Shown here: positions 53,924 through 64,000 of the stretch, piece after piece
Position numbering within the stretch: position 1 is the first letter of the stretch
Layout of the letters: every line of letters begins with the position of its first letter
Assembly (NCBI GenBank): GCA_005656395.1
Contig: SRSI01000065.1
Span: forward strand, 62,001-126,000
Reading direction: 5' to 3'
DNA from: Strongyloides papillosus
Taxonomy: Eukaryota > Nematoda > Chromadorea > Rhabditida > Strongyloididae
DNA: 64,000 bases
Position numbers and translations under genes: made by a program
Notes under the pieces: model-generated
Databases searched by the model: none
What the model was told of the DNA's origin: nothing
Seen by the model: only the letters and a program-made list of their open reading frames with translations

Positions 53924-54293
53924 AACTAAAAGTTTTATGACACATTTTCCGCACTGAGAGCAAAATACATTTAACTACTATCTTATCATAAAAATGGATT
54001 AGGTTGGAAAAAAATAAAGCTGAAGCTGTTAACAAAAATATGAAGGAATAGATTTATTTAATAAGAAAGAACAGGAATGACAATTTATGCTAAATAATTA
54101 TTACTTAAATACACACATCCGTGGGTGTGTACATCCTCCCGAATTTTTTGCATTGTCTCGGGACGAGAGGAATTGGAATTGCTATTTTTGCATGTTTTAA
54201 TTAATTGTTGATATAGTCATTATTCTTCAAGTGTATTATTTAAGGTAAGTTTAACATTGATCTGGTATTTGTATTAATTGTTGTATTTTCAGG
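53924..54293 (+). promoter_or_regulatory. Upstream region and 5'-UTR intron of the PPPY membrane-protein gene
   Basis: The stretch is less AT-rich than most spacer. A GTAAGT at 54245 and TATTTTCAG ending at 54292 define a likely 48-nt intron just before the ATG at 54294. Two small dyads lie upstream: ACACAC/GTGTGT (54111-54130) and TCCCGA/TCGGGA (54137-54163). The region is also where the distal LTR of the minus-strand retroelement might lie, but no matching repeat is visible in this window. Confidence 0.45.
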
Positions 54294-54740: not shown

Positions 54741-55412
54741 TAATTCATCATTGTTTTGTTAAGTTTTTTTGTTATCCTTTTTTTTGTTAATAAACCTTAA
54801 TTGTTATTATTTGTTTTCTTAAATTTGTTAATAATGTTCTTTTTGGTATGTAATTAAGATAGTACTTTGAATATTTTGTCATTTTTTGGTTTTTCTTTAT
54901 AATATCAGTTTATTTTATAGTAAATTTCAACTAATTGATATATTTTGATTTATCGATATCAGTTATCTGTAACTTAATGGTATAATGTAAAGACTATCAT
55001 AACGTCTAGACAGGTTCAAGAACTGTTAAATGTCCTTGAAGTTATTTAACGTTATCATTAAAGAATTTGTGGATAGTTTTTAAATTTTCTTTTATTCGAC
55101 CTTATTATGTCAATTAAATTTTATTAATTAATTAAGTTGGTTTTAACTTTTTTTTTTAAATTAAGCAAATGTACTTTATATTCTAACCTTGAGTTTTAAT
55201 TTATATAACTATATGTATTTTCACCCCCAATTAAAAGATAGGGTATTATAAAAGTTAATTTGCTACTATTACGTAGTTTAGTTTTTTAACAATTTATTTG
55301 TCTATTGTATTTATTGCTAATTAATACGTTATACTATATTTTCCATATGTTTATATATATTTAATATACTTTTTGTCATTTTAGATTTTTGAAATCCATT
55401 GTATCACCAAGC
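54741..55412. other. Intergenic region, AT-rich
   Basis: It holds the poly(A) signal of the upstream gene (54789-54794) and an AG acceptor at 55383-55384 just before the next gene's start. The latter leaves open an unrecognised 5' exon. Nothing else is recognised. Confidence 0.55.
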
Positions 55413-56570
55413 ATGTCTCTTCATGACCACGCAGATAACGCATTGTTAAATGATGATGAGCAAGACCAAGGTTCTCAAGTTAATGAACGAAAGCGTCGTC
55501 AACGAATAAATGCGCCGGCCATCAACGATCCTCCAGTTCCACCAACCCAACCTGATGATAAGGATGAAGATTTGGCTTTTTTGAACCTGATGGATCTTGA
55601 AGGAGAAGCTGATGTTGACGTCATCATGGGACGTTATTTCAAAACCATGAGAGGATTGAATGCCACCCTGGAGTCGGTGTATATCCTAATGGAGTTGGGA
55701 GAAGAAGTAGTTACTATGGAGCGGAAATTGCTATGGGGTAGCGAATCGCACATTAATGTGCTTCGAAAGTTCGATGATTTGTCGAGCATCCATGATGCTC
55801 GGCTTGCTTTTGTTCGCCGTAAGGCGGCATTATTGGCTGCTTTTCAGGGCGAACCAAATGCTCAACAGTCGGATGCCATTGGCACTCGTGCAAAAGCCAG
55901 CATTCCGAGGAGATTGGATTATCTTGTTGTGCGTACCACTGAGGAAGTAATGGCGATGTATCAATCCATCGCGAAGATAGATGCAGCACGTGTATTAGTA
56001 TGCACAAATGGTTCAGGAATTATCAATTTTCCAGCTACTATTAATTTGCCAAGTCTTACTGAATTGAAGATTAAGCATACTTCTGGCCATCTATCTGGAA
56101 AATTGCCCGGAAACTTAAATCTCTTATGGATAGACGGAATTGTTGTACCATCAAGAAAATCAACATTAAGTTTGTCAGGAATGTCTGTTTTACAGACTTT
56201 AATCGTCAATAGTTGTGACACCTTGAAGCTATTATTGTCTCAGCTGGATAAAAGTGTTCCTATCAAAGTGATTATTTCACTTTGTAAACCACATAAGTGC
56301 TTATGTGAGAAGCATATCCGAGCTGCAGCCTCGTTGGACTTGCCATACCGTGTAGCTATCGTTCCTGATAAGAAATACAATGCTCAGGTAATCACAGAAA
56401 ACGTAGCTGTCCAAAAGAACAGTTTCTTCAATAGAATAGGAACTGTCTACTACAAGAATTCCCATCAAATAAAGAAGTTTGCCAAATGTGAATTACCGGA
56501 TGACATTGCTGAGCTCGAGGTTGAGCGAAAGAAAGTTAGGTCTTCTGCTGCTGAAGGCTCTTTCTTTTAA
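55413..56570 (+). CDS. 385-residue protein with LRR-like middle part, function unknown
   Basis: The chosen start is the first ATG (55413). The frame is open upstream to about 55389 and follows a TTTTAG acceptor. The N-terminal 60 residues are acidic and disordered, with a basic KRRQR cluster (possible nuclear signal) and PPVPPTQP. Residues about 60-190 look helical. From about 195 to 290 short repeats of the type LPSLTELKIKHTSG, LPGNLNLLWIDG and MSVLQTLIVNSC resemble degenerate LRRs. The C-terminal part (KPHKCLCEKH, then YRVAIVPDKKYN) is unassigned. No transmembrane segment. AATAAA lies at 56623. It is much richer in GC than its surroundings, like the facing polyprotein. It could be an antisense accessory gene of the retroelement or a host gene next to which the element landed. 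I do not recognise a family. Confidence 0.75.
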   Translation: MSLHDHADNALLNDDEQDQGSQVNERKRRQRINAPAINDPPVPPTQPDDKDEDLAFLNLMDLEGEADVDVIMGRYFKTMRGLNATLESVYILMELGEEVVTMERKLLWGSESHINVLRKFDDLSSIHDARLAFVRRKAALLAAFQGEPNAQQSDAIGTRAKASIPRRLDYLVVRTTEEVMAMYQSIAKIDAARVLVCTNGSGIINFPATINLPSLTELKIKHTSGHLSGKLPGNLNLLWIDGIVVPSRKSTLSLSGMSVLQTLIVNSCDTLKLLLSQLDKSVPIKVIISLCKPHKCLCEKHIRAAASLDLPYRVAIVPDKKYNAQVITENVAVQKNSFFNRIGTVYYKNSHQIKKFAKCELPDDIAELEVERKKVRSSAAEGSFF

Positions 56571-56731: not shown

Positions 56732-59700
56732 TCATGTCTTTTGACTTTGATTATTGTGCAATTTTAGCATATCTCCATGAATTTTTTCAATATTTTGTCT
56801 AGTTTTACGAGATTTCCCAAGTTTCTCGATTTCATATGTGTCTCCATATAATCGTTGGATGACTTTATAAGGACCATCCCAAGTAGGTTGGTTTTTATTT
56901 GATGTAGAAGTGTCTTTTCTACTAATTACTTTCTTCATAACAAGATCGTTAGGTTGTATTTGGATACCTTTTCTTCTGGTATCGTCATCTTTCAACTCTG
57001 TTTTAGTGTTTTTATATAGTTGCAAAATGCCACTATATCCATTATGAATTGAAATATTATTTGTTAAGTTATCTGGTGTATTTAATAACAAAGTTGCTGG
57101 TGCAATACCAGTTGTAAGATGTTTTGATCTGTTATAAGCATAAGTAAAGTGATAAACAATATCACTAAGCTTCATAGGATTTCTCTTTTCCTGTTTAGCT
57201 ATTAATCGTTCCACACGAATGGCTTCTCTTATCGTTCTGTTGAATCGTTCAACACAAGCATTGCTTTTATGGTTATATGGTGAACCAAATTGTTGTTCAA
57301 CACCTATTGATGTTGTGTATTCTTGTACAGCTTTTGAAATAAAAGCAGGTCCATTATCGCTTCTTAGGATTAATGGAAATCCTAATGTCGTAAAGCATCT
57401 AGATAATTGTAATCTTGTTGTAGGACCGTTTTGGTTCTTTGTTACCACAGCATAAGCAAATTTGCTGTATTCGTCAACTATAACTAAGATGTTTTCATCA
57501 TCTACTTGCATATAATCTGCGTTTAATATGGCCCAATTTCCTGGTGCCGTTGGAAGGTGTCTTTTAGTTGTCTCAACTAATCTTCCTACATGATCTTTAC
57601 TAGCATTACAAATGTCACATGCAGTCCATATTTTATTCATGTCTGAATTCATTGATTCCCAATAGAATATTTCTTTAAATTTTGGTCCAATTTTGGCCAA
57701 ACTCAAATGATTACCTAGTGTAACTGAATTATGAAACCTTTTTAATAGTTTCTCTCTAAGAAGAGATGGTACATATACTCGTATTCCACCTTTCTTCAAA
57801 GTGAAAATGCCATCTTTGGCCTTTTTAGCCTCTTCATCGTTAAGATGGTGTTTCATATTCTCTATGATATAAGGTTTATCATATGGTGTTACAATATCAG
57901 GGAAAACATCTTTAAATGCTTCTTCCTTAATTGTTATCGATAGAAAATCGTTACGACTAAGATAGTCTGCTACTGCATTATCTTTACCTTTTACATATTG
58001 TATCGTTAGATCATATTCCATGATAGCCATTTGATATCTTTGCAGAATACTTTCAAGTTCTTTATTCTTTAATAAAGATAGTAATGGTTTGTGATCTGTA
58101 ATCACTAACGTGTGTTTGCCATAAATGTATGGACGAAATTGCTTGAGAGCATATACTAGACCTAATGCCTCAAGTTTTATTATTGGATAATTTTTCTCTG
58201 CTGGTTTCAGAGATCGAGATGCAAAGGCTATTGGTCGCCCTTGTTGTGTTAAAGCTGCTCCTAAACCTTGGAAGCTAGCGTCAGTGAAAATTGTATAATT
58301 TTTGGTATTATCAGGTGGTGATAATACTGCGGCATCAATTAGTGCCTTTTTCATGGCCTCAAAAGCATCCGTGTGCTTTTGTTCCCATTTAAAGTCTTTT
58401 TCAAGACCATATAGAGGTGCCGCTATTGCAGCGAAATTTTTAATATGTTTCCTGAAGTAGGAAACAGCGCCAAGGAAGCTTTTAACTTCTTTTACTGTTC
58501 TTGGTACTGGTTTATCCTGTAGTGCTTTGACCTTTTCAGGATTAACATGAATTCCTTCAGAGTCTAATCTGAAGCCTAAATATTTAACGCTGTTTTGGCC
58601 AAATTGACATTTGGCGAGAGAAATTTTCATACCATATGTAATGATACGTTGTAATATTTTTTCAATAGCTTTTAGATGATTAGATTCATCGTTGCTGCAC
58701 GTAAGAATGTCGTCAAGGTAGACGTAACATTCTGGAATGCCATCAAGGACTTCGTCCATGATTTCTTGAAATTTGTCTGGGCTACCTGTGAGACCCATAG
58801 GCATTACCTTATATTGGAAAATTCCTTCGTGTGTAACGAAGGCAGCAATTTGTTTGCTGTTGTCATCTAATGGTATTTGATGGAAGCCTGCCTTTAAATC
58901 AAAGGAGGTATAGAAGCGCTTACCAGCTGCTTCAGTCGTAATTCGATCAATGCGCGGAATCACATGGGATTGTTGTTTAATCAAACTATTTGTATATCGG
59001 AAATCTACAACAAATCTCCATTGTTGGTCCTTTTTACGGACTAATACTACTCGTGAGAGATAGGGAGAACGACTAGGTTCTATCATGCCATTTGCAAGCA
59101 TATCAGCGATTTGTTTGCTGATTTCATTTTCCTTTTCTCTACTCATTCGAGCAGGTTTTATCTTTTTAGGGATATCATCCGTGTTTTTAAGATCGATCTT
59201 TAAACGTTGTGAGCCATTGTATAGTCCACTTTTACCATCATATTCATGGAAAGCTACGCGATTACGCCATAGTAATTTTATCAATTCTTTATGTCCTTTT
59301 TCGGACAAGTTTGATGATGTTATCAGAGTTTCGAATGCCTCTTGTGATAGAGGTTCTGAAGACATTGGATAGGGAGGTAATGAATCTTCCCAATCCGCGT
59401 CTTCCGGAATTATTTCCTCACTGTGGACACGTAAAGTGTCTTTATCAATTTCCTCAATTGCGAAAACATCACCAATATAAGAATGTTTTGGTATTTTAAC
59501 TGGATTTTTTCCAGCGTTTATTACCACTATGGGTATTTTATTATCGTGTACTTTACATAGTTGCTCCATTGTAAGCAACATATTAGATTCTTTCCAATAT
59601 TTATCTATTTGTACTGATACATCAGTATTATTCATGTGTTTGTTTTTCAAAGTGACATGAAATATTGTGCAACTGTTGGGTTTAATTTTTATTTCTTCTT

Positions 59701-62700
59701 CAGTGAAGATAGAATTTTTATTATGATTTAATTTTTCATCTAGGAATAATTTTCCTATGCCAATATGTCTTATTGTTTTATAACCCAATACTATGTCATA
59801 CCTTAATGGTATAGAGCATATTTCAAAACGAACGTTGTATTTTTCACCTCTATAGGTGATGTCGACATTGGTATAACCATTTATGTTAATATTATGGCCA
59901 GATGCAGATACTGCTGCTATATCGGAATTATGTATTTCCAGGTTTAATGCGTCAGCTACCGTTTTGCTGATCATATTAATTGCTGCACCTGTGTCTACCA
60001 GTGCTTTAAATTCGACATCACTAATTTGGACATCTACCGTGGGTAATAATGTCTTACTATCGGAATCTGTAATATTAAATACAGGATATTTCCGAACACC
60101 TGATCGTGTTACTGTTATTCCATTTTGGATCGGACGTGAGTATTCCGAAACTCGGTGTACCAGAGGTATACCACTTCCTCCTGGTCCGAAAGGATCATTC
60201 GATACGTTATTTGGTGTTCTTAACCGTGCTACTGTTCGAGAGATTGTGCCCCCAATCTTCTCTTTAGCCATTCTGCCTGCTATGGCAGAAAATACCCCAA
60301 TGAGGAATGATAGAAAGGACTCATAATCTAGTCCTTTACCCTCAAAGTTTAGATTTTTAATTGAATTATTCAATTGGTCTGTGAAACTAGATTTGTCTTC
60401 TTTTTTATTTTGTTGTATTTGTTTACGAAGATCGGTTACATTTAAGTACTCTAATTCCTGTGTGGTATCAATTATGCCTTCTACGTTATTAAGTCTATTT
60501 ATAAGAGCTTCTTTATGGATACAGGCTGTACCTTTTGGTATCCCTTGAATAGTTAGTATTTCGTGTGTTATCGTTTTTATATTATGGTAAGTATTGGTAC
60601 GTAATGAATCGTATTTATTTAACTCATGCTGTGTAGATGTTAATTTATTATTTAACTCAGATTTGTCATCATCACATTTTTTACGAAGATCGTTTATTTC
60701 TTTAAGATGTGTTTCAGTCATCTTATTCTTTTCATCGAGACATTTATTTAACTCATCTGTTTGAACGCTAGGAGGTTCATTACTCCTATCTGTCGATATT
60801 TGGTCTAAAAGGATTTTCCTATTTTCAGCAATTTCTTCAATTGCTTTTTTATCATCAAGACATTGTTTTGCCTTATCTGTTTCCCTTTGTAGATCTAATT
60901 CAAACTGATTTCTTTCAGTTAAACAATCATTTAGTTGTTTTTGTGTATCTCTATGAGTATTTATTTCGTCACGAATGCGATCATCTTTATCCTTTAATAG
61001 TTTTTGATGCTGATCTTTAGTATTACGAAGATCTGTCTGAGTATTACTTAACTCTGTATTTTTAGATTCTAATTGTGTTTTAAGAGATTTTTCTGATTTC
61101 TCTAACTCTATTACCTTTTGTTGAGCATCTCTGAGTAATATGTCATTACTTAACCATTTATCTTTTTTGTTAATGGTATCTGCTATCATCTCTTCGAGAC
61201 CTTTAGCATACCGTTGTAATCCGTTGAATTGTATTTTGGCTTCAGCCTCATATTCTTGGCCGGAGCTACGGAGATTATCTACCATATTATTTTTCCCGTA
61301 TTCAGGAAGTTTGAAGCTATCAGCACTTAATGGTTGTGCTGTCCTTTGTGATCCGTCGGATGTTTCGCTTGTTATGCTCATTTCGTCATCCGACTTTTTG
61401 GATTTATCACTAGGTAATGATACACTATCAATTGAATTAATTGATATGACGTTTTCAGGTGCCTTGGCCTTGGCTCCTGTCGTCTTTTTGGGCTTACATT
61501 TAGCATTGTATGCTTTTGCCATGTCGATGTATCGTTTTGCCTCATTGGCCACACTAGGTCCTTGTTCTGGTGATTTCTCATACCAGGTACCATCTTTACT
61601 AACGTATAAATTTTTGTAATTGCATTCATTTACGCGTTTCTTCTGAAAGGCTATCTCAGAAATCTTATTTCCGGGTTTTTCCCGTATAAGTATTTGATGC
61701 ATTAACGTGCCAGTGATTTCATATCTTCCCACTGGAAAACAGGCGGGGGGTATTACTCTAAATTGAGCTGCTGTCGCTGTTTTGACGTCCCATTTAGCGA
61801 GAGCATAGAATGCAGGAGCCATGGGTTGATCGCACGGTTCAACCTCATAGCTGGGTGGTAATGTTGCACTTGTCATTGGCAACAGGATGAGCATAATGCA
61901 GGCCATCATTAACGTCATATTGTACTTCGCATTGGCTAAACTAGTAAGTACCAATTTATTGACGTAATCTGCCATTGATGCTTCCTCAACGCTATTCACC
62001 TGGGCTGTACCAGAGTGTTGTTTGCCATTTTTGGATCCTTTACCTTTGATATAGGTTTTACTATTATTTTTATAGTTATTATTAGAGTTATTATTATTAC
62101 TCTTAGCGTTGTTCCTCTCACGGTTACCACCGTTTCCGTGATTATTTTTATTACCGTTATGTTTAGTATAGTTATTTTTACCTTTTTGTCTATTCTTATC
62201 ATAATTATTGTTATGGTTTTTATGGTTATTACCTTTATTGTAATTATTTTTATGCCTATTATTGTTATGGCTTTTATTATTATCATGTTTATATTTATCG
62301 CTTGTCTTGTCGATATCTATTGCCTCATCCCCTTTGTTTATTTTATAATTTGGGTTATGATAGGCTAAAGAAGACTCAGCTTCAGTAAAGTGATTGGTGA
62401 ACTCATTCCATCTCCAGTCTCTTCCTAACTCGATTCTCGCTTCTTTGCGAATTATGTGAGGTACTGCATCACAGAAGTTCATGACTTCCGATCTCATGAG
62501 AGCAGGGTTGTCATTAAGATATGCATCTATCGATGTTACATCGAATCGTTGTTGAAGATACTTTTCGTATTTCTTTATGAATTTTACCATGTTATCGGTG
62601 CGTCTATCCCAATATGGTCTCTTTGCCAACATTTGGGTTCTGCTTTTTGTAGCAGAGCTTCTCATTTGAAGATATACAGCTTCTAACAATGCAGGTAATT

Positions 62701-63274
62701 GGGTACCTACTTTTAGTTTCCCTGTTTCATCAGAAAACATTGGGCGTACTTGCGTTAGGAATCTGTAAGCATCGCTAGATTCGGGTATGAAAATGTCAAT
62801 GAATTTGACACAGACTTCACATGCTAATCCAAATGAATAATCAGTTGCAGTTATGCCTGATAACATGTTAAGAAGTTTATCTTTCCACTTATTGAAATCG
62901 GTATCCGATCCTTTTGTAAAAGGTTGTAGTACAACACCTTTTTGAATATATCCTAATATTGTTCTAGACAACTCGTCTTGAAGCGGATCAGCTTTTCTCG
63001 TGTCCCATATTACGGGTAATACGGCTGATCTTCCCTCTGGAATCTCACATAATGCCATGAGTTCAGTTAACTCATCCATTTGAGCTTTAATTAATCGCTC
63101 TTTTTCCTCCTTTGTAGGAATTCGTCCTACTGATAGGAGTCTTTGCTCATCTTTCCATTGTTTTGACCGAATGGTAAAGATGGCATCGAAATTTGCCATC
63201 CTAGAGGATCTAGGAGTTTCTTGGGCATTAGGAGCCGTTGGAAATGGATTACTACTAGTATTCATTACGTTCAA
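56732..63274 (-). CDS. Ty3/Gypsy-type retroelement polyprotein (Gag-insertion-PR-RT-RH-IN)
   Basis: One uninterrupted 2,180-residue frame. Residues 1-320 are Gag-like, followed at 325-420 by an Asn/Lys/His-rich basic tract. There is no CCHC zinc knuckle. Residues 450-1060 are an unusual insertion described separately. Protease active site DTG is at 1094-1096. In reverse transcriptase, FDLKAGFHQIPL is at 1458-1469 and YLDD at 1519-1522. In RNase H, TDAS is at 1664-1667, E1702 and D1727. Integrase zinc ligands are H1848, H1856, C1886 and C1889, and the catalytic D1920, D1973 and E2009 have exactly 35 residues between the last two. A GPY/F module (WDGPY, 2132-2136) lies near the C terminus, typical of Gypsy integrases. 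All catalytic residues are present, so it may be active or recently so. PR-RT-RH-IN order excludes Ty1/Copia. Single-frame Gag-Pol without a frameshift is seen in some Gypsy elements. Confidence 0.95.
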   Translation of the reverse strand: MNVMNTSSNPFPTAPNAQETPRSSRMANFDAIFTIRSKQWKDEQRLLSVGRIPTKEEKERLIKAQMDELTELMALCEIPEGRSAVLPVIWDTRKADPLQDELSRTILGYIQKGVVLQPFTKGSDTDFNKWKDKLLNMLSGITATDYSFGLACEVCVKFIDIFIPESSDAYRFLTQVRPMFSDETGKLKVGTQLPALLEAVYLQMRSSATKSRTQMLAKRPYWDRRTDNMVKFIKKYEKYLQQRFDVTSIDAYLNDNPALMRSEVMNFCDAVPHIIRKEARIELGRDWRWNEFTNHFTEAESSLAYHNPNYKINKGDEAIDIDKTSDKYKHDNNKSHNNNRHKNNYNKGNNHKNHNNNYDKNRQKGKNNYTKHNGNKNNHGNGGNRERNNAKSNNNNSNNNYKNNSKTYIKGKGSKNGKQHSGTAQVNSVEEASMADYVNKLVLTSLANAKYNMTLMMACIMLILLPMTSATLPPSYEVEPCDQPMAPAFYALAKWDVKTATAAQFRVIPPACFPVGRYEITGTLMHQILIREKPGNKISEIAFQKKRVNECNYKNLYVSKDGTWYEKSPEQGPSVANEAKRYIDMAKAYNAKCKPKKTTGAKAKAPENVISINSIDSVSLPSDKSKKSDDEMSITSETSDGSQRTAQPLSADSFKLPEYGKNNMVDNLRSSGQEYEAEAKIQFNGLQRYAKGLEEMIADTINKKDKWLSNDILLRDAQQKVIELEKSEKSLKTQLESKNTELSNTQTDLRNTKDQHQKLLKDKDDRIRDEINTHRDTQKQLNDCLTERNQFELDLQRETDKAKQCLDDKKAIEEIAENRKILLDQISTDRSNEPPSVQTDELNKCLDEKNKMTETHLKEINDLRKKCDDDKSELNNKLTSTQHELNKYDSLRTNTYHNIKTITHEILTIQGIPKGTACIHKEALINRLNNVEGIIDTTQELEYLNVTDLRKQIQQNKKEDKSSFTDQLNNSIKNLNFEGKGLDYESFLSFLIGVFSAIAGRMAKEKIGGTISRTVARLRTPNNVSNDPFGPGGSGIPLVHRVSEYSRPIQNGITVTRSGVRKYPVFNITDSDSKTLLPTVDVQISDVEFKALVDTGAAINMISKTVADALNLEIHNSDIAAVSASGHNININGYTNVDITYRGEKYNVRFEICSIPLRYDIVLGYKTIRHIGIGKLFLDEKLNHNKNSIFTEEEIKIKPNSCTIFHVTLKNKHMNNTDVSVQIDKYWKESNMLLTMEQLCKVHDNKIPIVVINAGKNPVKIPKHSYIGDVFAIEEIDKDTLRVHSEEIIPEDADWEDSLPPYPMSSEPLSQEAFETLITSSNLSEKGHKELIKLLWRNRVAFHEYDGKSGLYNGSQRLKIDLKNTDDIPKKIKPARMSREKENEISKQIADMLANGMIEPSRSPYLSRVVLVRKKDQQWRFVVDFRYTNSLIKQQSHVIPRIDRITTEAAGKRFYTSFDLKAGFHQIPLDDNSKQIAAFVTHEGIFQYKVMPMGLTGSPDKFQEIMDEVLDGIPECYVYLDDILTCSNDESNHLKAIEKILQRIITYGMKISLAKCQFGQNSVKYLGFRLDSEGIHVNPEKVKALQDKPVPRTVKEVKSFLGAVSYFRKHIKNFAAIAAPLYGLEKDFKWEQKHTDAFEAMKKALIDAAVLSPPDNTKNYTIFTDASFQGLGAALTQQGRPIAFASRSLKPAEKNYPIIKLEALGLVYALKQFRPYIYGKHTLVITDHKPLLSLLKNKELESILQRYQMAIMEYDLTIQYVKGKDNAVADYLSRNDFLSITIKEEAFKDVFPDIVTPYDKPYIIENMKHHLNDEEAKKAKDGIFTLKKGGIRVYVPSLLREKLLKRFHNSVTLGNHLSLAKIGPKFKEIFYWESMNSDMNKIWTACDICNASKDHVGRLVETTKRHLPTAPGNWAILNADYMQVDDENILVIVDEYSKFAYAVVTKNQNGPTTRLQLSRCFTTLGFPLILRSDNGPAFISKAVQEYTTSIGVEQQFGSPYNHKSNACVERFNRTIREAIRVERLIAKQEKRNPMKLSDIVYHFTYAYNRSKHLTTGIAPATLLLNTPDNLTNNISIHNGYSGILQLYKNTKTELKDDDTRRKGIQIQPNDLVMKKVISRKDTSTSNKNQPTWDGPYKVIQRLYGDTYEIEKLGKSRKTRQNIEKIHGDMLKLHNNQSQKT
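60095..61927 (-). other. Insertion between Gag and protease: hydrophobic / Cys / coiled-coil / hydrophobic
   Basis: Within the polyprotein, residues 452-470 are hydrophobic and signal- or TM-like (LMMACIMLILLPM). About 120 residues with four Cys (481, 512, 551, 593) follow. A Ser-rich linker then leads to a long Lys/Glu/Gln coiled coil at about 675-960, a second hydrophobic segment (FLSFLIGVFSAIAG, 987-1000) and a basic stretch. Signal, ectodomain with coiled coil, TM and basic tail is the outline of a membrane-anchored protein. Only about two N-x-S/T sites are seen (945, 969), which weakens an envelope reading. A structural or capsid-associated role is the main alternative. Confidence 0.6.
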
Positions 63275-63459
63275 AGTTCAAATACCTTTACTTTTTTTTA
63301 GCTGTTTATCAGTCTATTTTGTATTTCCTTATTGGAAATAGTTATTTATATTTTATATTTGGTATGTATAACTTTATATTGTTATTTGTGTGTATACTGT
63401 ATAGTATAGTCTGTTGTAGAATAAACTTGTAGCTTATTCAGTGGTTATAAGTATTTATG
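63275..63459 (-). other. Proximal 5' leader of the polyprotein
   Basis: AT-rich leader between the hairpin array and the Gag ATG at 63274. No primer-binding site (a TGG-starting match to a tRNA 3' end) was recognised. Confidence 0.5.
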
Positions 63460-63737
63460 TTCCACAAGACGAATCGTATGGAATTGATGATAATTATGTA
63501 GTTTATAAAACGAATCTTATAAACGGTTTTTAACTTGTTTATTTATCTTATTGAAGACGAATCTTCAATAATGTGAGTATAAGATATTTGATATCGAAAA
63601 CGAATCGTCGATATGATTTAATTGATAATTTGGTATTGACAACTAATCGTCAATACGATTTTAAAGGTTTAATATTGACAACGAATCGTCAATATGGTTT
63701 TAAAGGTTTTTAAGTATTGAAAACGAATCGTCAATAC
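63460..63737 (-). promoter_or_regulatory. Array of seven hairpins with an invariant loop in the 5' leader
   Basis: Seven inverted repeats are centred near 63472, 63512, 63560, 63602, 63645, 63684 and 63725, a spacing of 39-48 bases. Each has the loop AACGAATC (plus strand; GATTCGTT in the sense RNA) or a one-base variant. The stems are seven or eight perfect pairs except in the first, which has a mismatch. The stem sequences differ between hairpins but pairing is kept, for example GTTTATAA/TTATAAAC, TATTGAA/TTCAATA, ATATCGA/TCGATAT and GTATTGAC/GTCAATAC. They lie 100-400 bases after the TATA box and before Gag, so they should be in the genomic RNA. A packaging or Gag-binding signal is the natural guess. 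DNA-binding sites for a dimeric protein are the alternative. Confidence 0.9.
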
Positions 63738-63861
63738 GGTTTTAACGGTAATAATTTCAATTTACTTTTTGAAGTAAATTCGGCAGCAGCAGCAATAGTT
63801 GTGTTTTAAACAACTTAAACGGTAAAAAGAAAAGAATGTATCAGTCTTGAAATTTTCTTTC
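63738..63861 (-). other. Distal 5' leader with a ninefold-paired hairpin
   Basis: AATTTACTT, loop TTTG, AAGTAAATT (about 63760-63781) is a perfect nine-pair hairpin with a different loop from the array. Predicted transcription starts at about 63830-63840. Confidence 0.5.
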
Positions 63862-63869
63862 TTTTTATA
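63862..63869 (-). promoter_or_regulatory. TATA box of the retroelement transcript
   Basis: Minus-strand GGCGTATAAAAAG, about 590 bases before the Gag ATG and preceded by GC-richer sequence. It would sit in the U3 part of the 5' LTR if the LTR extends past the window edge. Confidence 0.6.
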
Positions 63870-64000
63870 CGCCGCATCAACCCCACCTTTTTCTCCGTAT
63901 TTGGGGCGCGCCTGCATAAACTAGATTATCATTTGGCAAACTTACTTGATGGGCTTATCTGGTTTCACGGGAGGCGGTGGTTGACGGAATTCGTTCTCTT
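63870..64000 (-). other. GC-richer upstream region, probably part of the 5' LTR
   Basis: Contains GGGGCGCGCC and GGGAGGCGGTGG (plus strand), much richer in GC than the rest of the window. It is the expected position of promoter/U3 sequence. It cannot be tested because the window ends and no second copy is visible. Confidence 0.4.

Follow-up and report, generated by a model that had tools for sequence, protein, structure and literature searches.

Here we report that seven regularly spaced dyads upstream of the gag-pol gene of a Ty3/Gypsy retrotransposon of the nematode Strongyloides papillosus are probably RNA hairpins that belong to the 5' untranslated leader of the element, within an RNA that is kept folded by selection. 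Short hairpins are in excess throughout gag-pol, more so on the sense strand, and nowhere denser than in the array, which we interpret as the non-coding extreme of a hairpin-folded RNA. This wider pattern was absent from the initial annotation and puts the array in a different light. The analysis covers one genome, in which related elements are not independent of each other, and the promoter discussed below is predicted from motifs.

Architecture of the element

The window, i.e., the whole stretch of 64,000 nucleotides that was analysed (C58:62001-126000), has a GC content of 24% and belongs to a 58.2-Mb assembly of 79 contigs that was used for all genome searches. The array sits 5' of a minus-strand ORF of 2180 aa (56732-63274), in which Pfam identified protease (residues 1080-1166), RVT_1 (1412-1570), RNase H (1630-1754), and integrase (1835-2001) domains, all in a single gag-pol frame and in the order of Ty3/Gypsy elements. 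The two 107-bp LTRs are identical and have TGT..ACA ends. The primer site that follows the 5' LTR is presumably of the tRNA-Gln type, complementing the 3' end of that tRNA. In window coordinates, the main parts of the element are as follows:

64162-64268, minus strand: 5' LTR, 107 bp, beyond the window, followed by the primer site TGGAGGTTCCACCGAG
56732-63265, minus strand: gag-pol ORF with protease, RT, RNase H, and integrase, hairpin-rich, start ATG at 63263-63265
54027-54133, minus strand: 3' LTR, 107 bp, identical to the 5' LTR

Only two proteins matching the first 520 residues of the ORF were found, from Strongyloides venezuelensis (77%) and S. papillosus (45%), in line with a Strongyloides-type host. 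Pfam detected no zinc knuckle (CCHC) in Gag; in its place there is a long basic tail rich in Asn, Lys, and His (approximately 62040-62310, minus strand), followed by a hydrophobic segment (approximately 61860-61925, minus strand) within the same gag-pol ORF.

Between pol and the 3' LTR, a 393-aa ORF lies antisense to gag-pol (55389-56570, plus strand). It has no Pfam match and a TATA-like box at 55247. The genome contains 33 matches to it, the lowest with 23% identity, and at least a dozen stand beside and opposite reverse transcriptases of the same Gypsy clade; it is thus a conserved antisense gene of these elements. The poly(A)-like signals after pol (56695 and 56641) face those of the antisense ORF (56623 and 56669).

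A conserved small ORF, MSRKDQ...KPIK, is located upstream of the array (63937-64019, minus strand, partly past the window end). It was read in eight of the ten copies described below, L012 and L013 lacking a literal start motif, and is possibly the first exon of a spliced product. It ends at a splice-donor-like site, CAA/GTAAGT, replaced by GTGAGT in copy C14:502. Since this site lies upstream of the array, splicing from it may conceivably remove the array from some RNAs.

63937-63948, minus strand: splice-donor-like CAA/GTAAGTTTG at the end of the conserved small ORF, upstream of the array

Seven hairpin units in the leader

The seven dyads of the initial annotation are all present, with starts 39-47 nt apart. 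Listed in the RNA sense as 5' arm, octamer, and 3' arm, they are:

63714-63737, minus strand: unit 1, first in the RNA sense, GUAUUGAC GAUUCGUU UUCAAUAC
63672-63695, minus strand: unit 2, AUAUUGAC GAUUCGUU GUCAAUAU
63633-63656, minus strand: unit 3, UUAG variant, GUAUUGAC GAUUAGUU GUCAAUAC
63591-63614, minus strand: unit 4, AUAUCGAC GAUUCGUU UUCGAUAU
63548-63571, minus strand: unit 5, UUAUUGAA GAUUCGUC UUCAAUAA, 10 bp plus UUCG
63501-63524, minus strand: unit 6, GUUUAUAA GAUUCGUU UUAUAAAC
63460-63483, minus strand: unit 7, nearest gag, UUCCAUAC GAUUCGUC UUGUGGAA, one G.U

An octamer kept throughout with a single variant had been described. The variant AACTAATC is indeed found in 63633-63656, but the units at 63460 and 63548 read GACGAATC, their last loop base in the RNA sense being C rather than U; the RNA-sense octamer is GAUUCGUU in four units, GAUUAGUU in one, and GAUUCGUC in two. 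The perfect pairing claimed for six of the seven units likewise needs a correction: with flush arms, six units are fully paired over 7-8 bp (four over 8 bp and two over 7 bp), but the latter two carry a C.U mismatch next to the octamer. The remaining unit has 7 bp with one G.U plus a C.U next to the loop. According to RNA folding, each unit of the element RNA forms a hairpin of 9-10 pairs, in which the supposed 8-nt loop mostly consists of two further pairs (G.U or G-C, and A-U) closing a UUCG or UUAG tetraloop. Four units have 10-bp stems, and three have 7 + 2 pairs around a 1x1 mismatch. The hairpin energies range from -4.7 to -10.5 kcal/mol. Not every unit is exceptional when taken alone: the single-unit folding z-scores are -0.5 for unit 4, -1.9 for unit 7, and between -2.5 and -5.2 for the other five (-5.2 for unit 3).

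Perfect-hairpin stems occupy 164 nt of the 572-nt leader, whereas 200 dinucleotide shuffles average 37 nt and never exceed 82, and the two array-holding segments rank first and second in stem content among 354 overlapping 360-nt segments across the 64 kb. On the basis of these shuffles, this ranking, and the genome-wide unit search given below, a chance origin of the array was rejected. A known RNA family was also rejected, as no Rfam match up to an E-value of 1 was obtained in 3321 bases of L009 around the leader, and so was a genome-wide word effect, the word AACGAATC not being enriched in the genome (447 + 484 occurrences versus 462 + 440 for controls).

Array copies, tandem duplication, and covariation

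A search of the genome for the array yielded 11 matches in ten elements. Seven units are present in C58 (the window's element) and C14:725, six in C14:209 and C14:477, five in C35:417, C14:1064, C14:364, and C3:1787, and three in C59:102; the most diverged copy, C14:502, has five motif matches, one of which fits the flush-arm frame badly. The commonest unit type, TTGACGATTNGTTGTCAA, occurs 25 times in the genome with at most one mismatch, each time in one of the ten leaders (25/25), and its reversed control gives 0. The looser pattern TTATAAGATTNGTTTTATAA, allowing up to two mismatches, gave 44 + 46 matches versus 78 + 57 for the controls and therefore represents background at that looseness, while its eight exact matches fall into eight of the ten elements. 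An isolated look-alike among these looser matches, at C13:775657, was discarded as a probable chance match.

The initial annotation held that units with such different stems could not come from simple tandem duplication. In C14:209, however, an 81-bp dimer present in three tandem repeats of 96% identity makes up the array, so tandem duplication does build arrays. The part of the claim that stands is that compensating change diversifies the units. Duplication accounts for the spread of the units, compensating change for their diversity.

Covariation between the arms, proposed earlier as a check on other copies, persists over the 21 distinct units from the ten copies (the copies are related, and the shuffles keep this relatedness in). 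In a model with a 10-pair stem and a 4-nt loop, 92.9% of the 210 cells are paired, compared with 71.9% after shuffling and 36-60% with slid partners. Two-sided change occurs in eight of the ten stem pairs, with 41 cells versus 11.9 in shuffles, and none of the 500 shuffles reaches any of the five covariation measures. The weak pair is the one adjoining the octamer, which is unpaired in 9 of 21 units; the loop-closing pair is G.U in 15 units, G-C in six, and A.C in none. Six bases are invariant among the 21 units, all of them in the stem-loop cap, and the flanking arms vary; the third tetraloop base can be C, A, or U. Compensation at the same position is seen in unit 7, where CC/GG of C58 becomes UC/GA in four copies, and in unit 6, whose outer G-C is A-U in C59 and C14:502. 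With covariation far above the shuffled and slid controls, the earlier proposal of selection on structure in a Gypsy leader, most likely at the RNA level, is borne out. The conserved UUCG-type cap suggests a cap-reading partner.

The array is absent from the six relatives with 75-83% identity whose leaders were read, and a covariance model found no match up to an E-value of 5 in 19 loci of relatives (L062-L080); three of these loci (L066, L069, L070) do not represent leaders, and two more (L075, L076) represent a leader only in part. The array was accordingly rejected as a feature of the wider clade.

The leader as a probable 5' untranslated region

The leader contains the following further features:

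63266-63869, minus strand: leader between the internal TATA box and gag, AUG-free where about 7 would be expected
63861-63869, minus strand: internal TATA box (TATAAAAAG)
63829-63839, minus strand: initiator-like ACATTCTTTTC, about 31 nt past the TATA box, predicted transcription start
63797-63815, minus strand: hairpin AGUUGU/ACAACU
63759-63780, minus strand: hairpin AAUUUACUU CAAA AAGUAAAUU
63419-63439, minus strand: hairpin GAAUAA/UUAUUC
63393-63408, minus strand: hairpin UAUACU AUAC AGUAUA
63322-63340, minus strand: hairpin UAUUUCC AAUAA GGAAAUA

The folding z-score of the leader is -8.0 on the sense strand and -3.7 on the antisense strand, and leader stem nucleotides exceed all 100 shuffles in each of the ten copies. 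In C14:502, the stem AGUUGU/ACAACU of C58 is replaced by UUGUUUUA/UAAAACAA with pairing kept.

All ten copies have an AUG-free run of 582-625 nt before gag, compared with 6.0-8.8 ATG in shuffles of the same sequence; since such a run is bounded by the last ATG, it is its length that counts as evidence. The motif-defined leader (approximately 570 nt) has no ATG in any of the five copies processed. In five focal copies, CAT occurs 7-11 times versus 9.5-10.6 expected, so the lack of ATG is strand-specific. The AUG-free run starts at the internal TATA box, with the initiator-like CATTC about 31 nt further on. This TATA-initiator pattern has five matches on one strand of the whole window and none on the other. 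It was found at the internal position in nine of the ten copies, the miss being the diverged C14:502, and in the upstream LTR region in four of the ten, including one match that belongs to another type. In a set of 14 relatives, both places carry it in L063 and L065, only the upstream one in L064 and L077, and neither in ten; the combination of LTR and internal positions is thus missing in 12 of 14. A leader that lacks AUG and begins at a TATA box and initiator looks like a scanned 5' untranslated region of gag-pol, and we infer from these motifs that the gag-pol mRNA starts internally near 63837 and that the array is scanned.

In L015, the C14:209 copy, the upstream TATA/initiator stretch is identical to that of the L065 family, not to that of the C58 family, and is perhaps a recombinant or a neighbouring insertion. 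L063, L064, L065, L067, and L068 share a hairpin type, GATCCAACC GTTA GGTTGGATC, directly after the primer binding site. The 657-nt leader of L064 (79% relative) contains no ATG from primer site to gag and has eight hairpins with no common loop.

Hairpins and folding energy in the coding sequence

The gag-pol ORF of the window has 646 nt in perfect short hairpins, whereas 60 shuffles preserving both protein and codon usage gave 197 +- 47 (maximum 298). The same was seen in 30 ORF pieces around the RT of such elements (ten of them close copies, the window's own included): all 30 exceed the mean of their synonymous shuffles, 27 exceed all 25 shuffles, and the summed hairpin content is 8656 nt versus 3318. 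Five host ORFs, namely three myosin and two TCP-1/Cpn60 family matches, gave ratios of x0.66-1.05. In 13 pieces, the excess grows with stem length, being x1.5 for 5-bp and x4.3 for 9-bp stems, with one stem of 10 bp or more versus 0.9 in the controls; it peaks where the loop has 3-10 nt and has faded once the loop reaches about 17 nt. No excess of direct repeats (154 vs 150) or mirror repeats (144 vs 159) was detected in these 13 pieces.

The folding-energy difference (MFED) was calculated with ViennaRNA on 350-nt fragments with 25 dinucleotide shuffles. For the window's gag-pol it is 24.2% on the sense and 13.4% on the antisense strand, with all 18 fragments positive. Seven clade relatives have values of 11.7-31.4%, and the five host ORFs range from -5.1 to 8.7%, two of them reaching 7-9%. 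The sense value is the larger one in 8/8 clade sequences, but not in L087. Among more distant Gypsy elements, we obtained 2.4% for L087 (43% RT identity), 14.1% for L088 (41%), and -4.3, 2.3, and -3.4% for L089-L091 (28-34%). With synonymous shuffles, the window's gag-pol reaches 28.2% (sense) and 17.6% (antisense). Six relatives have sense values of 14.7-33.7% by this method, and four host ORFs lie between -0.6 and 10.4%; three more clade relatives have 22.5-30.8%, the fifth host ORF -3.6%, L087 12.5%, L088 13.1%, and L089-L091 -5.5 to 1.6%. By this distribution, the trait is neither a feature of the tested host genes nor general among Gypsy elements; ordered structure is strong in one Gypsy clade and partial in nearer kin.

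Of the features of genome-scale ordered structure, a coding folding energy well above sequence-order controls was found for gag-pol, but a spread along the whole genomic RNA was not: MFED falls from 24.8% in gag-pol to 6.7% in the part after pol, and the three segments beside the 3' LTR have values between -14 and -1%. The low value downstream of pol would be odd if the whole genomic RNA were selected. Visual inspection of the 15 commonest loop 4-mers of the coding hairpins revealed no conspicuous motif, and TTCG occurs in none of 79 coding hairpin loops (1.3 expected).

Base changes in stems

Wobble evidence was mixed. Summed over eight ORFs below 82% identity, stems with six Watson-Crick pairs plus one G.U number 30 vs 15.1 (x2.0), and those with A.C 19 vs 19.9 (x0.95); G.U outnumbers A.C in five of the eight. 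With at least seven pairs, the eight ORFs give x2.5 for G.U, x1.45 for A.C, and x1.8 for other mismatches. Under a stricter setting with 30 loci, G.U is at x1.53 and A.C at x1.78, with no sense-strand preference.

Double changes in coding stems remain Watson-Crick in 612 of 1541 cases (40%), compared with 21-28% with shifted partners, and 1308 hairpin columns coincide between families versus 731 +- 72 after rotation, to which ancestry at 70-75% identity contributes. Among eight close copies, none of 18 arm differences is two-armed, which argues against frequent perfection of hairpins by template switching; single arm changes comprise 3 G.U and 9 A.C and thus lend no support to wobble tolerance. 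When the badly aligning L038 (10% different) and L041 (20%) are included, 24 of 78 differences are two-armed, and the ten listed all involve those two.

Proposed mechanism and alternative explanations

On balance, RNA-level selection is favoured. We propose that the gag-pol mRNA would start near 63837 at the internal TATA box and initiator, that ribosomes would scan through the AUG-free leader as far as gag at 63265, and that selection would keep the gag-pol RNA folded as a string of short hairpins, i.e., as ordered RNA structure. The repeated UUCG-type caps would most likely form a multivalent protein site, with Gag as the first candidate, and the folding at large may protect the transcript against small-RNA or dsRNA machinery. 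Gag, a host factor, and shielding from RNAi are each presumed as the reader or role of the hairpins. Several observations weigh against this model: the mixed wobble evidence, the low structure after pol, MFED values of 7-9% in two of the five host controls, the lack of the array in the relatives of 75-83% identity, and the missing TATA-initiator pattern in C14:502 and most relatives.

A narrower version would make every UUCG-capped hairpin a specific binding site of Gag, with cooperative genome selection or a shut-off of translation as the effect of the row and with the coding hairpins as secondary; this is possible, though we would not bet on it. The capped hairpins stand in a row near the gag start, and their cap is conserved while the stems change; multivalency would help a Gag without a CCHC knuckle by Pfam, and assembly via multiple dispersed stem-loops has been described for RNA viruses (PMC6281560). 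However, the leaders of close relatives do not have the motif, and its absence from all 79 coding hairpin loops leaves a genome-wide packaging code unsupported. If the internal promoter is real, a non-genomic mRNA carries the array too, so the array alone would not mark genomic RNA. Another role in the leader, ribosome shunting or IRES-like organisation of the translation start in place of partner binding, would fit a highly structured region just before gag, yet the lack of AUG in 10/10 leaders suggests scanning rather than bypass and the hairpins are weak (at most -10.5 kcal/mol), making this very improbable.

Two further explanations dispense with RNA-level selection. Reverse transcriptase could perfect quasi-palindromes by template switching, so that hairpins accumulate unselected. 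This agrees with the perfection of the hairpins in excess, their 3-10-nt loops, their spread through the element with the highest density in the leader, their prevalence mainly in one RT clade, and the non-uniform G.U preference. Against it stand the lack of two-armed differences among the eight close copies, a cap conserved more than the stem, the larger sense-strand folding excess in all eight clade sequences, the coinciding hairpin columns between families, and the absence of folding excess beside the 3' LTR; we regard it as an unlikely sole cause, but a mutational share in the hairpin excess may exist. Alternatively, the array could act in DNA as regulator or insulator sites. With an LTR of just 107 bp, the element may have its regulatory DNA internally, and the Drosophila gypsy insulator has 12 Su(Hw) sites in the 5' UTR (PMC2374998). 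In the present array, no DNA binding-site consensus is kept per repeat of the kind found in that insulator: the kept sequence is non-palindromic and the palindromic arms vary, although a dimer would need kept half-sites. The dimeric DNA-binding protein suggested in the initial annotation thus finds no support, because the arms that it would read are the variable part. The loop-closing pair, G.U or G-C but never A.C, and the sense bias of the folding excess also speak for RNA, and we hold a DNA-level role to be highly unlikely.

Comparison with known systems

Like the array, the Su(Hw) insulator of Drosophila gypsy is a row of repeated sites in a Gypsy 5' UTR, but it keeps a 12-bp DNA consensus between AT-rich spacers, whereas here the arms vary, compensate, and pair (PMC2374998). 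The genomic RNAs of Ty3 and Ty1 likewise have a structured 5' end, and that of Ty3 has a well-folded core that is located largely within or close to the part coding for RT, with packaging sites not precisely defined; the accessible portions of these reports describe neither a tandem kept-cap hairpin array nor a synonymous-shuffle test (PMC11381356, PMC4974528). The dispersed packaging-signal stem-loops of viruses similarly combine many stem-loops with a common motif (PMC6281560), but here the motif is limited to the leader and Gag binding is hypothetical.

Both TATA boxes of the BARE retrotransposon are reportedly located in its LTR, while the second TATA box predicted here lies between the primer site and gag. 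BARE has distinct RNA pools, its transcripts from two TATA boxes serving translation and packaging (PMC3735527).

The closest parallel to the coding hairpins is GORS of positive-strand RNA viruses, a coding-wide folding excess with many short consecutive stem-loops (PMC7642675, PMC3950689). Published MFED values are about 15% for SARS-CoV-2, 7.5-10.7% for HCV, and 23.4% for the highest vertebrate RNA virus (PMC7642675); the 11.7-31.4% of our eight clade sequences can be compared only roughly, as the methods are similar but not identical. Unlike GORS, the present structure belongs to an LTR retrotransposon, its excess lies in perfect stems up to 9 bp, its leader has a repeated cap motif, there is little of it downstream of pol, and hairpin positions may be partly common to families. 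Individual pairings and positions in GORS are described as poorly conserved between relatives (PMC7642675). Among the matches listed from the open-licence literature, judged by titles and abstract openings, there is no report of ordered RNA structure in LTR retrotransposons, nor of a kept-cap hairpin leader array.

In some RNA viruses, ordered structure has been linked to interaction with host sensing (PMC3950689), and in Strongyloides ratti the predicted targets of small RNAs that are believed to derive from RdRP include transposons, LTR gypsy elements among them (PMC9203780); folding against silencing is therefore a testable idea here. In its boldest form, the clade would have evolved virus-like ordered RNA structure on its own gag-pol unit, with an internal promoter, an AUG-free UUCG-capped leader, and its own poly(A) signals facing an antisense gene, and would thereby evade RdRP/small-RNA silencing. 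We consider this doubtful, though worth stating. If true, this would be, to our knowledge, the first demonstrated case of an LTR retrotransposon that counters RNAi by folding its RNA on a large scale.

Folding of a strength similar to or greater than that in RNA viruses occurs in one LTR clade, beside Gypsy elements of the same genome without it, and this contrast between clades provides a natural comparison for the purpose of such folding. The leader array is a compact case in which RNA hairpins have been multiplied by tandem duplication and diversified by compensating change.
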